From Terriglobia bacterium (lineage in GTDB: Bacteria > Acidobacteriota > Terriglobia > Acidiferrales > UBA7541), in contig JAIQGC010000051.1 in assembly GCA_020072805.1 (NCBI GenBank), forward strand, positions 1 through 32,197: a stretch of DNA of 32,197 nucleotides. The letters are read 5' to 3'. The position numbers were made by a program, and so were the translations under genes. Positions 15,681 to 20,202 of the stretch are shown piece by piece. The notes beneath the pieces are model-generated. The model searched no databases and had not been told where the DNA came from. It saw only the letters and a list, made by a program, of their open reading frames with translations. Within the stretch, counting starts at the first letter, position 1; every line of letters begins with the position of its first letter.

Positions 15681-16277
15681 AGTCTGTGTGGTGACTCCTG
15701 TTTCCCAGGGGGTCGGAGCTTTAGCTCCGACATAAGACATTGTTTTTCAGTGCGGCTTCAGCCGCTGAGGAAATGATTTCGCCGTTATCAGACATCTTCC
15801 CGCGCCTGCTTTTCTCTCTTGTTCCGGTAGGGGCGGGGCTTGCCCCGCCCGTTTTTCCCGCGTCCGCGGTTGGGGCATGGCATGCCTGCCCCGGACAGTT
15901 CACCCCGGATAGCCATCGGGGCAGTCGGAGCCGTGCCCGCTCTTGCTTTTCATTTTTCTTGCTGTCATCTGCTTTTTTCGCATCCCGGATGCTTCTACGG
16001 GACCGACCGCAGTGGAGGGACCTCTTCTTGCTGTCATCCCGACCGCAGTGGAGGGATCTCTCTTCTCCTCCGCGCCACCCGGAACTTATCCCGATTTGAT
16101 TGGCAGGCCGGCATCTTGCTTTTCTTGATTGTGTATCGCCCGGCGGGTCCGCCCGAAAGGGAACTACAACGCATCCGCAAACAACGGCTTTTTCTCAATC
16201 GGTGTTGGTCCGCAAACGGACAGGCATCCTGCGGAACTCAGCCAAGCTTCCGCATCGCCCGCAATTCTTCTTAATCC
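15681..16277. other. Gene-free, palindrome-rich interval after the aromatic operon
   Basis: No credible ORF is present in about 600 bases. It holds GTCGGAGCT-TT-AGCTCCGAC (15712-15731), GCGGC-TTCA-GCCGC (15752-15765), GGGCGGGGC-TT-GCCCCGCCC (15831-15850) followed by GTTTTT, and two direct copies of GACCGCAGTGGAGGGA (16005-16020 and 16041-16056). The word TGCCTGCCCCGGACAG is shared with copy 2 of the MITE-like element. The interval separates two convergent genes, so some of these stems may act as terminators. Confidence 0.7.
15831..15855 (+). terminator. Possible intrinsic terminator of the aromatic operon
   Basis: A perfect 9-bp GC stem (GGGCGGGGC/GCCCCGCCC) with a two-base spacer is followed by GTTTTT. 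It is 150 bases past tyrA. The T run is short and the stem belongs to a repeated palindrome class, so the terminator role is tentative. Confidence 0.35.
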
Positions 16278-17171
16278 CTATTGTGCAAGCTTTTGCAACT
16301 CCGGGTAGGACGCCGCCTCCACGAACGTATTTTCCGGCGGCTGCTTCTGCGTTTCCAGCGCCTGAGCCAGCATCTCCATGGCTCGATCCATCGTCAGCGA
16401 GGTTACCACCGCCGCGGTGAGGCTGCGCCCGTCAACCAGTGTCTTCACCTGGCTGGCGATGCCCATGCCGATGAATGGCAACCCCTGCCACTTCTTCTGC
16501 AGCTCCGCGTTTTCGATTGTTTGGAACGCCCTCCGGGCGCCTCTCACGAATTCAAGAGAGTGTCCCGCCACCAGGTCATACCGCTCCGGTCGGGATGTCG
16601 CCAGCTTCAGCCAGGCGCAGGTGCTCTGGAAAGCGCCCTCTTCTCCCCATTTGCTCCGCAGCGTTGTGAGCTGTAGGTTGCTCGGCCGGATGCGTTCCAT
16701 CCCCTCGGTTCGCTCGGTTGCCACGGTGCTCGAACTGGGCCCCTGGATGTATAAGACCGATCCCCCCTGGGGCAGGAGCGTGGCCATCTGCTTGCCTTGC
16801 AGCCGGCCAATTTCGCGGTGGTCCTGAGAGATGCTGAATACCGGAATCTTCGAGCTAGTGCGCAGCTTGGGCAGATAGTCCACATTGGCGTTGCTCACCA
16901 CCCAGGCCATCCCTGCCTCCACGGCCACTTCCGCGACGCGCCGCAGCCCTGTATGCACCACCGGCTCCACCATAAATGCGCTGGGCCGCGGCTCCGACCG
17001 CGATTGGATGATTTCCAGCAACTGCTGGCTTTGCGTCACCGCGTCATCGTTCGCATGCAGCACAAGCAAGTCGAACCCCAGCCGCTCTCCCGCCCTTTTC
17101 GCTGCCAGCTCCTGCTCATGCAAGTACGCATTGTCATTGGGAAGAGAAACCACCACCCGCGGTTTGGTCAT
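16278..17171 (-). CDS. Periplasmic-binding-protein-fold (sugar-binding type) protein, apparently cytosolic
   Basis: This 297-residue protein has the type I periplasmic binding fold of the RbsB/LacI effector domain: KPRVVVSLPNDNAYLHEQELAAKRAGERLGF at the start, PSAFMVEPVV, ISQDHREIGRLQGKQMA, VLYIQGPSSSTVATERTEGM and a C-terminal VDGRSLTAAVVTSLTMDRAMEML. It has no signal peptide and no DNA-binding domain, so it is neither a standard ABC transporter receptor nor a LacI regulator. There are no permease or ATPase genes nearby. It may be a stand-alone cytosolic ligand sensor; the ligand is unknown. Flanking palindromes on both sides isolate it as a single-gene unit. Confidence 0.75.
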   Translation of the reverse strand: MTKPRVVVSLPNDNAYLHEQELAAKRAGERLGFDLLVLHANDDAVTQSQQLLEIIQSRSEPRPSAFMVEPVVHTGLRRVAEVAVEAGMAWVVSNANVDYLPKLRTSSKIPVFSISQDHREIGRLQGKQMATLLPQGGSVLYIQGPSSSTVATERTEGMERIRPSNLQLTTLRSKWGEEGAFQSTCAWLKLATSRPERYDLVAGHSLEFVRGARRAFQTIENAELQKKWQGLPFIGMGIASQVKTLVDGRSLTAAVVTSLTMDRAMEMLAQALETQKQPPENTFVEAASYPELQKLAQ

Positions 17172-17484
17172 GTCCTGATTCCTAAGGAAAGTTTAATGTT
17201 GGCAGTATAGAGCGCTGGGCCGCCTCCTCTCCGTCTCCGTAACCTCATTGCCGCAAACTAGTTAACCCCGCTAGCGCAAAAACTCTTCCCTCTCCGCGTT
17301 TGTAGAGGCCGGGCTTCAGCCCGGCTCTTGGGTTTCACTGCGGCTCTCTGTGCTTGTCACTCAATTCGCCTGTTCTCTCTGGCTTCCCCTCTACAAGCGC
17401 CACCCTAAAGGGTGGATCGTGCCGAACTTCCCGCTACCCCCTTCTTGCGGTACACTCCCTTCGTTCCTTCGCGGAGCTTCCTCC
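17172..17484. other. Promoter/palindrome interval before scoA
   Basis: This 313-base gap separates the divergent binding-protein gene and scoA. It holds the 26-base palindrome word at 17300-17325, identical to 13657-13682, and CCACCCTAAAGGGTGG at 17400-17415. An open frame running from 17350 into scoA is not needed, because the scoA family start is at 17485. I cannot point to a convincing promoter. Confidence 0.6.
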
Positions 17485-18177
17485 ATGGACAAACGCATCG
17501 CTTCCGCCGACGCCGCCATCGAAAAACTTTTCGACGGTGCCACCATCCTCATGGGCGGCTTCGGCCTCTGCGGCATTCCCGAAACGCTCATCGCCGCCGT
17601 CGCCCGCAAGGGCACGAAAGATCTCACCGTCGTCTCCAACAACGCCGGCGTGGACGACTTCGGCATCGGCATCCTCCTGCAAAGCCGCCAGGTCAAGAAA
17701 ATGATCTCCACCTACGTCGGCGAAAACAAACTCTTTGAAAAACTCGTCCTCAGCGGCGAATTGCAGGTCGAACTCAATCCCCAGGGCACTCTCGCCGAAC
17801 GCCTCCGCGCCGGCGGCGCGGGCATCCCGGCCTTTTTCACTCCCACCGGCTACGGCACCATGGTGGCCGAAGGCAAGGAAGTCCGCGAATTCGAGGGCCG
17901 CAAATGCATCCTCGAACGCGCCCTGCGCGGCGATTTCGCTTTCATCAAAGCCTGGAAGGGCGACCGCTGGGGCAACCTCATCTATCGCAAGACCGCGCGC
18001 AACTTCAATCCCATGATGGCCACCGCCGCCGACTGCGTCATCGCCGAAGTCGAACAGCTCGTGGACACCGGCCAGATCGATCCCGACGAAGTGCACACGC
18101 CCGGTATCTACGTCGACGCCATTTTCCAGGGCACTCAATACGAAAAACGCATCGAACGCCGCACCACGCGAAAGTGA
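17485..18177 (+). CDS. scoA: 3-oxoacid CoA-transferase subunit A
   Basis: From MDKRIASADAAIEKLF the product has 230 residues, the normal length of ScoA/AtoD. The GxGxxG-like CoA site ILMGGFGLCGIPE is near the start, followed by LTVVSNNAGVDDFGIG, ISTYVGENKLFE and the conserved PAFFTPTGYGT. With ScoB it moves CoA between succinyl-CoA and acetoacetate or another 3-oxoacid for ketone-body or branched acid breakdown. GGAG lies upstream of the ATG. Its partner scoB would normally follow at once, but here a foreign-looking gene lies between. Confidence 0.93.
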   Translation: MDKRIASADAAIEKLFDGATILMGGFGLCGIPETLIAAVARKGTKDLTVVSNNAGVDDFGIGILLQSRQVKKMISTYVGENKLFEKLVLSGELQVELNPQGTLAERLRAGGAGIPAFFTPTGYGTMVAEGKEVREFEGRKCILERALRGDFAFIKAWKGDRWGNLIYRKTARNFNPMMATAADCVIAEVEQLVDTGQIDPDEVHTPGIYVDAIFQGTQYEKRIERRTTRK

Positions 18178-18184
18178 GCACCAG

Positions 18185-19012
18185 ATGAAAACGCGTAGCC
18201 TCCCACTGAAGGTCCAAACCTTACAGTGGACTGGAGTGTGTCACCTTGCGATCTGGTTTCCGCCGGTCGGGCTGTCTGCTGCCGCATTAGCTGTTCTTGG
18301 AGCTGTTGTGTCGATTATCGGATTCAAGGGATGGAGAAGGGTTCTATTCGCTTCGCTCTTTGTATTACTGGGCGTTGGAGAAGCCATGTCGATAATTAAG
18401 GCAGATTCGGACCACAAAGAGGAAATACGCGGTTTGAACAGGGCTCTTGATGGAGTTCAAGCTACCTTGACTGCCACTCAGATACAGAGTGCTGCTGACA
18501 TGGGGTTTTTGAAAGGGAGACTAGCTTCCGGAATTGGCCCTGATATTGGCCGACTTGGAGCGGAGATCGCCAGGGAAAACGCTAAAATGATTCAGCAACT
18601 GTCGAAGACCGTCTCTGCTAAGGAATTGAGCAACTCCGCCATTAATCTAGCCCAAAAGATGAGGGAATTTGAGCGCGCGTGGAGGGTGCAAGAACGACTC
18701 GGAGAGGAGCAGCTATGGAATGCTCAGATTGCGGCCAAGACGCCGGACGAGAAAGTGAAGCTACGGAATCAACAGACTGCATTCTATATCCAATCTCACG
18801 CGAACGAAGAAGCTGCTTTTAGGAGCCAGTTATTAGGGCAGGCAATCTATCTAAGAGACCAGCTATTGATGCGTCTTGGGAATCCTGCAATTACTACGCA
18901 GAACCGCATTAAGGAGTTGGCATTTGATGGAATGCTGGCAGGTCCGAGCCCTATTTCCGACGCAGCTGATTACTTGGAGCAATTAGCTAGGCAACTTTCC
19001 CCGAGGCTGTGA
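18185..19012 (+). CDS. Orphan membrane protein inserted between scoA and scoB
   Basis: This 275-residue protein is of no family I recognise. Two adjacent hydrophobic helices (about 29-48 and 53-70) are separated by a basic turn (KGWRR). A long, charged helical region follows (about 75-220, DSDHKEEIRGLNRALDGVQ... AQKMREFERAWRVQERL) that looks like a cytoplasmic coiled coil. Composition differs from its neighbours: two counted 60-base rows are 48% (18541) and 43% (18781) GC against 62% in a scoB row (19141). Codon choice is also unlike the C-ending style of scoA and scoB. The ribosome binding site is weak. It starts eight bases after scoA and is cotranscribed if it is expressed. Horizontal acquisition is the likely origin; its function is unknown. 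Confidence 0.7.
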   Translation: MKTRSLPLKVQTLQWTGVCHLAIWFPPVGLSAAALAVLGAVVSIIGFKGWRRVLFASLFVLLGVGEAMSIIKADSDHKEEIRGLNRALDGVQATLTATQIQSAADMGFLKGRLASGIGPDIGRLGAEIARENAKMIQQLSKTVSAKELSNSAINLAQKMREFERAWRVQERLGEEQLWNAQIAAKTPDEKVKLRNQQTAFYIQSHANEEAAFRSQLLGQAIYLRDQLLMRLGNPAITTQNRIKELAFDGMLAGPSPISDAADYLEQLARQLSPRL

Positions 19013-19081
19013 GGCCCTTGTATCTAATGTTAAGGGAAGCGATTAGTTTCATTACTTGAGACTTTCAACTGAGAACTCAAT

Positions 19082-19753
19082 ATGCCTCTGACCGAAGAAC
19101 AAAAACGAGAACGTATCGCCCGCCGCATCGCCAGCGAACTCCGCGATGGCCACTACGTCAATCTCGGCATCGGCATGCCCACTCTCGTCGCCAACTACGT
19201 TCCCGCCGGCATGGACGTCATCCTGCAATCGGAAAACGGCATGCTCGGCGTCGGCCCCTATCCCCTAGATGCGCAAGTCGACCCCGACCTCATCAACGCC
19301 GGAAAAGAAACCGTCTCCGAACTTCCCGGCTGCTGCTATTTTTCCAGCGCCGATTCCTTCGCCATGATTCGCGGCGGCCACGTGGACCTCACCGTTCTCG
19401 GCGCGCTGCAAGTGGACGAAAAGGGCACTCTGGCCAACTGGGCCATCCCCGGAAAAATGCTCAAGGGCATGGGCGGCGCGATGGACCTGGTCGCCGGCGC
19501 GCGCCGCGTTTTCATCGCCATGGAGCACGCCACCCGCGATAATAAGCCAAAAATTTTAAAGCAGTGCACCCTCCCGCTAACCGGCGTCGAAGTCGTCGAC
19601 CACATCGTCACCGAACTCGCCGTCATTGACGTCATTCAAAAAGGCCTCCTGCTCCGCGAACTCGCTCCCGACACTACTTTCGAAGAGGTGCAATCGCTCA
19701 CCGAACCGAAACTGCTCATTCCTCCCGGAGGCCCCGCGAAAATGCTCATCTAG
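19082..19753 (+). CDS. scoB: 3-oxoacid CoA-transferase subunit B
   Basis: This 223-residue partner of ScoA carries the active-site glutamate in [13 protein letters not shown], which forms the glutamyl-CoA thioester. [14 protein letters not shown] near the start and [20 protein letters not shown] in the middle are family hallmarks. It is complete and of normal length. It begins about 900 bases downstream of the scoA stop, an unusual separation for subunits made in equal amounts. The 69 bases before it show no strong ribosome binding site. Confidence 0.94.
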
Positions 19754-19893
19754 TTATTCCTGTAGCCGTTCCCTGTCCCGGCGGCCAGCCCCGTCACTCT
19801 TTGCTCATCGCCTTCTCTCACGGATGCCGGGATGCGTTAGCCTTGTCGAAAGAAAGCGGAGACTGCGGGAATCGGTATCGCGCAAAGGCAACC

Positions 19894-20202
19894 ATGGAAA
19901 TTCATTCAATCGTGATCGTCAGCCTCACGGCCCCCAAGGAAAAAATCTGGGGCGAACTTCTGGCCATTCATCCCGCGGGCATCACCGTTCGCGGCATTGA
20001 CCTGAACTCCTTCGATCATCTGGTCAGCCAGGTCAACGAACCGGAAGGCGACCGCTTGGGCCTGCCCACGCTCTTTTTTCCGCTCAACCGCGTTGAGCGC
20101 ATCGCCCTGGACGAGCCTTCCGGCTCGATTCCGTCCATGGCCGAAGTGTTCGCGCGCAAGGCCGGGCGCTCGCTTGCGGAATATCTCTCGCAGTTCGCCT
20201 GA
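19894..20202 (+). CDS. Small conserved hypothetical protein, 102 aa
   Basis: MEIHSIVIVSLTAPKEKIWGELLAIHPAG starts at ATG 19894, preceded by AAAGG. The product is a small soluble alpha/beta protein that ends in a short helical tail (SMAEVFARKAGRSLAEYLSQF). FFPLNRVERIALDEPSGSIPS in the middle suggests an Sm/PilZ-like small beta fold, but I would not assign one. It has no signal peptide. pgsA follows after 22 bases, so the two may share a transcript. The family is unknown to me by name. Confidence 0.7.
   Translation: MEIHSIVIVSLTAPKEKIWGELLAIHPAGITVRGIDLNSFDHLVSQVNEPEGDRLGLPTLFFPLNRVERIALDEPSGSIPSMAEVFARKAGRSLAEYLSQFA

Follow-up and report, generated by a model that had tools for sequence, protein, structure and literature searches.

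Hotspots of gene acquisition without mobile elements, tied to homologous recombination at the flanking core genes, have been outlined by Oliveira et al. (2017; PMC5635113), in whose outline a hotspot is a spot with acquired genes above a 95% simulation threshold over the genomes' spots. The locus analyzed here lies between scoA and scoB, which encode the two subunits of a 3-oxoacid CoA-transferase, in a genome from a Candidatus Acidiferrum-like genus of Gp2 soil Acidobacteria. The integration of newly acquired genes into operons is considered rare, and a search of titles and the starts of abstracts found no literature on the scoA-scoB locus or on operon insertion in Acidiferrum.

The window, by which we mean the whole analyzed stretch of 32,197 nucleotides, is one complete contig of a 3.98-Mb draft genome in 157 contigs. 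On its plus strand, scoA (17485 to 18177, 230 aa) was identified by the NCBIfam model TIGR02429 (288.3 bits against a cut-off of 128.5; E, 3e-86) and scoB (19082 to 19753, 223 aa) by TIGR02428 (322.2 bits against 243.55; E, 1e-96). The 904-base gap between them (18178 to 19081), compared below with those of the genus and of other genera, holds an insert on the same strand. As the original prediction stated, this insert is an 828-base gene, referred to here as the orphan, which runs from an ATG at 18185 to 19012 and encodes 275 aa; the predicted spacer of eight bases after the scoA stop codon measures 7 (18178 to 18184), and 69 bases separate the orphan stop codon from scoB. The left break of the insert coincides with the scoA stop codon or lies close to it. 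In local alignments of the 69-base tail (19013 to 19081) with other gaps, the best scores were 31 (G009), 29 (G023), and 28 (G007, G010, and G030). Its end (19047 to 19081, plus strand), which resembles the scoB leader of congeners with their AACTGA-type heptads, is probably a remnant of the original scoA-scoB junction. Degenerate AACTGNN heptads are found upstream of scoB in many congeners, and runs of three were counted 6 times across 564 kb of the source genome, against none in five shuffles.

The orphan ORF is a credible gene, as judged from a shuffle test and from its GC content by codon position. When the mononucleotides of the 904-base gap were shuffled 2000 times, the longest ORF had 197 codons (mean, 83), against the 275 observed, and the GC fractions of 0.57, 0.43, and 0.51 at the three codon positions follow the pattern of a coding gene. 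Its composition was compared with that of eight metabolic genes of the window (trpC, trpF, trpB, trpA, aroF, tyrA, scoA, and scoB) and is foreign-looking. Overall GC is 0.50 and third-position GC (GC3) is 0.51, against 0.60 to 0.69 and 0.73 to 0.87 in the metabolic genes; third-position GC skew is +0.26, against -0.55 to -0.75 in these C-rich genes; and an index similar to the codon adaptation index (CAI) gave 0.19, against 0.53 to 0.74. The predicted lower GC content and different codon style are borne out. A plain ORF list from the same 564 kb contained 31 ORFs of at least 100 aa with less than 55% GC, and the orphan is the longest of these to be flanked on either side by a same-strand ORF no more than 150 bases away.

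We observed two candidate membrane helices in the product, at residues ∼27 to 46 and 50 to 71 (18263 to 18397, plus strand), in agreement with the prediction of two. Hydropathy windows of 19 residues exceeded 1.4 at starts 17 to 33 and 52 to 55, with one marginal window at 44, and the corresponding helices of a single-sequence AlphaFold2 model, at 32 to 46 and 50 to 73, are of low confidence. The model is all helical (mean pLDDT, 62; the better part being residues 121 to 200), which is consistent with the long helical region that had been predicted; the helical C-terminal region would span residues 119 to 271 (18539 to 18997, plus strand), and pLDDT in blocks of ten ranges from 54 to 89 across residues 121 to 270. 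Fold searches with this model (pLDDT, 62) returned generic helical bundles, with a best E value of 0.19 in Foldseek and a best Z score of 8.9 in VIA, the latter to designed bundles.

Neither Pfam nor NCBIfam profiles matched the orphan at their curated cut-offs, as expected for a gene that the prediction had assigned to no recognized family. The best profile match was PF09534 (Trp_oprn_chp), a membrane protein family that the orphan weakly resembles in its membrane hairpin, over residues 30 to 101 only; at 22.8 bits (E, 9e-5), below the Pfam gathering score of 29.6, membership in this family was rejected. Among the overlapping sets of genomes searched, no homologue was found as a second copy in the source genome, in 60 relatives including 35 congeners at E values of up to 1 (best congener, 0.06), in 95 genomes of the order at 0.01, or in a phylum sample of 396 genomes at 0.001. 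In the search of the 60 relatives, loci outside the window contributed 14 weak matches (E, 0.0057 to 0.65; 12 genomes), and the three whose loci were inspected (L002, L003, and L014) held no convincing relative of the orphan. PHROGs gave only E values of 0.08 to 0.09, PADLOC gave nothing, 50,697 phage records gave no match better than E 1, and 72,556 plasmid records gave none at E 10. Pattern-based scans of genome contigs and viral contigs, which reach close relatives only, found no copy; the best hit among PDB sequences had an E value of 7.4, and Rfam had no match at its gathering score over positions 17000 to 20000. The profile and structure searches returned neither a homologue nor a convincing fold match, and the orphan is a singleton foreign ORFan, which taken alone would be ordinary, if clear.

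Given its two candidate membrane helices and helical remainder, the product is most likely an accessory (passenger) protein that is dispensable, helical, and anchored in the membrane. Nothing was seen that links it to the CoA-transferase, and it is most likely no part of that enzyme. By analogy with the Imm1-like cargo described below, an immunity or defense role is possible for some genes of this site; for the orphan itself, such a role appears doubtful.

We then compared the scoA-scoB junction across the genus and the family. Among 36 genomes of the genus, 34 contained scoB at an E value of 1e-75 or better, and in 31 of these scoA was present upstream on the stretch read; the other three (G005, G021, and G025) were excluded from the gap count because their contigs end before scoA. 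Gap lengths in the genus ranged from 3 to 2238 bases and exceeded 300 bases in 14 of the 31 genomes, whereas in the other genera of the family, where 44 genomes had a match and the gap was measured in 43 of them (G110 was left out), it was at most 210 bases and thus never exceeded 300 (Fisher exact test, p = 5.8e-7, uncorrected for the relatedness of the genomes). Most of the genus gaps of up to 300 bases (14 of 17) measured 3 to 82 bases. The scoA-scoB junction is therefore a repeatedly used insertion site that, within the family, is peculiar to this genus. The premise that CoA-transferase subunit genes are almost always adjacent is borne out in the other genera measured and fails within the genus itself. 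In one of the other genera, scoA and scoB were fused into a single ORF of 456 to 458 codons (five genomes; L091 and L100 to L103), the reverse extreme of a split junction.

The 18 cargo ORFs of the 14 genomes fell into ten unrelated BLAST clusters at an E value of 1e-3. Six genomes carry an M28 peptidase (G010, G015, G017, G018, G026, and G030), and three carry four copies of a small membrane protein (G004, twice; G008; G024). The remaining clusters, assigned by Pfam where a match existed, comprise a DUF7693 protein in G011; a DUF2625 protein and an Imm1-like protein in G006, the latter scoring 22.9 bits where the cut-off is 22.4; in G015, a carotenoid-synthesis protein (PF04240) and an ORF of 76 aa with no Pfam match; in G003, a serine hydrolase (PF00144) encoded on the opposite strand; in G007, an ORF of 86 aa, again with no Pfam match; and the 275-aa orphan of the source genome. 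At least eight arrivals are needed to account for them, a conservative count in which genes of one genome that possibly arrived together are taken as one. No recombinase was found among the cargoes examined. Since most congener genomes are metagenome-assembled, some gap contents could be misassembled.

The cargoes appear to differ in age. The M28 peptidase copies are 71 to 83% identical to each other, compared with 84 to 95% for scoA and 90 to 95% for scoB, and their insertion looks old. Low GC3 beside the genome's own scoA and scoB was seen for the cargoes of G004, G007, G008, G011, and G024, and less so for the M28 peptidase and others. A separate peculiarity of G004 (L075) is a positive third-position GC skew in scoA (+0.53) and scoB (+0.58), which would fit a position of the locus on the other replication strand; this skew was negative in the other 13 cargo genomes (not computed for scoA of G011). 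The original prediction had proposed a recurrent family of cargo genes with operons as their targets, but the orphan was found only once, and it is the scoA-scoB site that recurs instead. Nor did the small membrane protein qualify as such a family elsewhere: its 35 matches in the genus comprise four strong ones, all of them at scoA-scoB (G004, twice; G008; G024), and 31 weak ones (E, 3e-5 to 1e-3), located in open frames of 393 to 448 codons that presumably encode PilC/GspF. A remnant of this cargo in the tail of the window was likewise rejected, as its score was reached by 45 and 56 of 500 shuffles.

As controls, we analyzed four other junctions, each in up to 30 genomes of the genus. The sucC-sucD gap was 8 bases in 29 of 30 genomes and the thirtieth held an apparent second copy of sucC, so that no foreign gene was present. 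At aroF-tyrA, 4 of 30 gaps exceeded 200 bases, and these contained one 225-aa gene without Pfam match, one piece of aroF (split or duplicated), and, in two cases, no ORF of 60 codons. Gaps of more than 200 bases were also found at trpB-trpA (11 of 29; L130 to L151), where nine matched one lipoprotein-like family, and at pheS-pheT (18 of 28; L367 to L390), where 17 matched one methyltransferase family, with many copies seemingly broken. Operons of this genus are thus split more often than expected, and the frequency of long gaps at pheS-pheT and trpB-trpA makes operon splitting partly a habit of the genus. Nevertheless, sucC-sucD has no cargo family, aroF-tyrA has one, and trpB-trpA and pheS-pheT have mainly one each; among the five junctions compared, of which the four controls are a small set, turnover of many families is seen at scoA-scoB only.

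When did the orphan arrive? In a tree built from scoA and scoB, plus trpA and tyrA where available, the source genome stands beside G007 and G009 with a support of 1.0. These closest sampled congeners lack the orphan: the 390-base gap of G007 holds its different 86-aa ORF, and the 165-base gap of G009 holds a palindrome. A similar GC-rich palindrome, of the ggggcggggcttgccccgcc type, is present in the window at 15830 to 15850. On the next branch (G019, G020, G034, and G035), the gap is 61 to 82 bases. By parsimony and at species-level sampling, the simplest history would be a single gain of the orphan on the source lineage after its split from the nearest sampled relatives. Because neither a donor copy of the orphan nor an empty/filled pair within one species was found, we infer the insertion event. 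The prediction of a recent foreign insertion agrees with the composition of the gene, with the lack of a homologue in 35 congeners, with the absence of the orphan from G007 and G009, and with the compact gaps of other genera. Had the gene been an old part of the operon, the original prediction expected all close relatives to carry it with matching composition, a pattern that was not found. An ancestral scoA-X-scoB arrangement from which other species lost the orphan is the kind of history that the M28 peptidase, with its six copies (71 to 83% identical) and its absence from many species, probably had at this very site. For the orphan, it is improbable in view of the lack of a homologue in the 35 congeners, a composition that has not adjusted to the host, and the short or different gaps of the nearest branches. 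Origin de novo from intergenic DNA of the junction, or a chance ORF, would explain why no homologue exists anywhere searched, but we regard it as very improbable: the 275 codons exceed every one of the 2000 shuffles, the codon-position GC (0.57, 0.43, and 0.51) is typical of a coding gene, and 14 of the 17 genus gaps of up to 300 bases, at only 3 to 82 bases, are too short to be its source. An assembly chimera, which a draft genome of 157 contigs might suggest, is hardly credible, given that scoA and scoB bound the insert within one contig, that scoB-leader-like sequence is present on its right side, and that cargo occupies the same place in other assemblies.

The route of entry leaves further readings to be weighed. 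Short foreign genes without relatives are common in mobile elements, and the orphan, being such a gene, could be what a phage, a transposon, or an integron cassette has left behind. We consider this quite unlikely, however, since there was no phage match better than E 1, no plasmid match at E 10, and no close relative in viral contigs. A repeat search over 17900 to 19300 gave only short pairs at chance level, such as the 8-base ACTCAATA at 18133 and 19075; with no terminal inverted repeats or target duplication around the insert, a transposon was rejected. Integron attC core motifs have the form GTTRRRY or RYYYAAC, and the plus strand of 18178 to 19081 contained neither, so that an integron cassette was also rejected; the hairpin of the tail is no more stable than those of shuffles (z = -0.18). 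A different reading takes the 5' end of scoB as an attachment site, at which a site-preferring recombinase encoded elsewhere would insert cargoes near codon 15 of scoB, so that a duplicate of the scoB start would remain upstream of the cargo. In its favor, part of the first 29 to 55 bases of scoB is copied inside 6 of the 17 genus gaps longer than 100 bases (L049, L051, L061, L064, L071, and L075), clearly so in G004, G006, G010, G029, and G030 (scores of 53 to 73, against shuffle maxima of 22 to 30) and marginally in G016 (L061; 30, against a shuffle maximum of 28). In G010 (L064) and G030 (L049), the N terminus of the M28 ORF derives from an in-frame copy of this kind. A motif search for the scoB start in 36 genomes, in which the diverged copies of G016 and G029 go undetected, had matches in 33, all at or just beside scoB. 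No such copy is present in the window gap (score of 25, reached by 2 of 40 shuffles) or in ten others, though; the relics may stem from two or three old events, they would be explained equally well by tandem duplication or by illegitimate recombination assisted by homology, and no recombinase was identified, which leaves this reading with little probability. The same relics also allow the junction to be read as a natural landing pad for single genes, in which the scoB start, copied with the cargo, would serve as a platform for recombination and expression, and unrelated genes would be captured, translated either through coupling to scoA or from a scoB-type start, and in time exchanged for others, with no element of their own; this, too, we think unlikely.

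The probable explanation, in our judgment, is that of a single foreign ORFan at a genus-specific, repeatedly used insertion site, with read-through expression and an accessory product. New genes would arrive on acquired DNA and would probably be joined by recombination at short stretches of homology or at the conserved scoA and scoB flanks, with no recombinase of their own. Cargoes may then persist because a site behind the transcribed scoA would give them read-through expression while scoB remains intact; the arrangement itself was observed directly. In 8 of the 14 genomes, the cargo lies tightly behind scoA, starting at -4 relative to the scoA stop codon, i.e., overlapping it, in G011, G017, G018, and G026, at +1 in G015 and G024, at +7 in the window, and at +13 in G008. 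Such placement fits read-through or coupled expression from scoA. The six looser genomes do not suggest tight coupling, as the first cargo ORF starts at +35 to +144 in G004, G006, G007, G010, and G030 and lies on the opposite strand in G003.

One soil acidobacterial lineage has thus repeatedly taken up genes between two subunits of one enzyme, with sucC-sucD staying closed, and the scoA-scoB junction offers a defined place to study gene capture without mobile elements and the expression of captured genes. In this genus, pheS-pheT and trpB-trpA also carry insertions, which are similar in that a gene divides two subunits of one enzyme; they differ in that each involves mainly one old family (methyltransferase or lipoprotein-like, respectively) that is common to many species and often decayed. 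With ten clusters in 14 of 31 genomes, set against the four control junctions, scoA-scoB shows the turnover of a hotspot of horizontal gene transfer. It resembles the hotspots of PMC5635113, as they are outlined there, in that unrelated genes turn over between conserved neighbors without recognized integrases. In the same outline, those comparisons are made within species, whereas ours is between species of one genus, and, unlike the hotspots outlined, the scoA-scoB site accepts one to three genes and separates the two subunits of one enzyme. Such an intraoperon site between the subunits of a single enzyme is a variant of the hotspot that is worth reporting.
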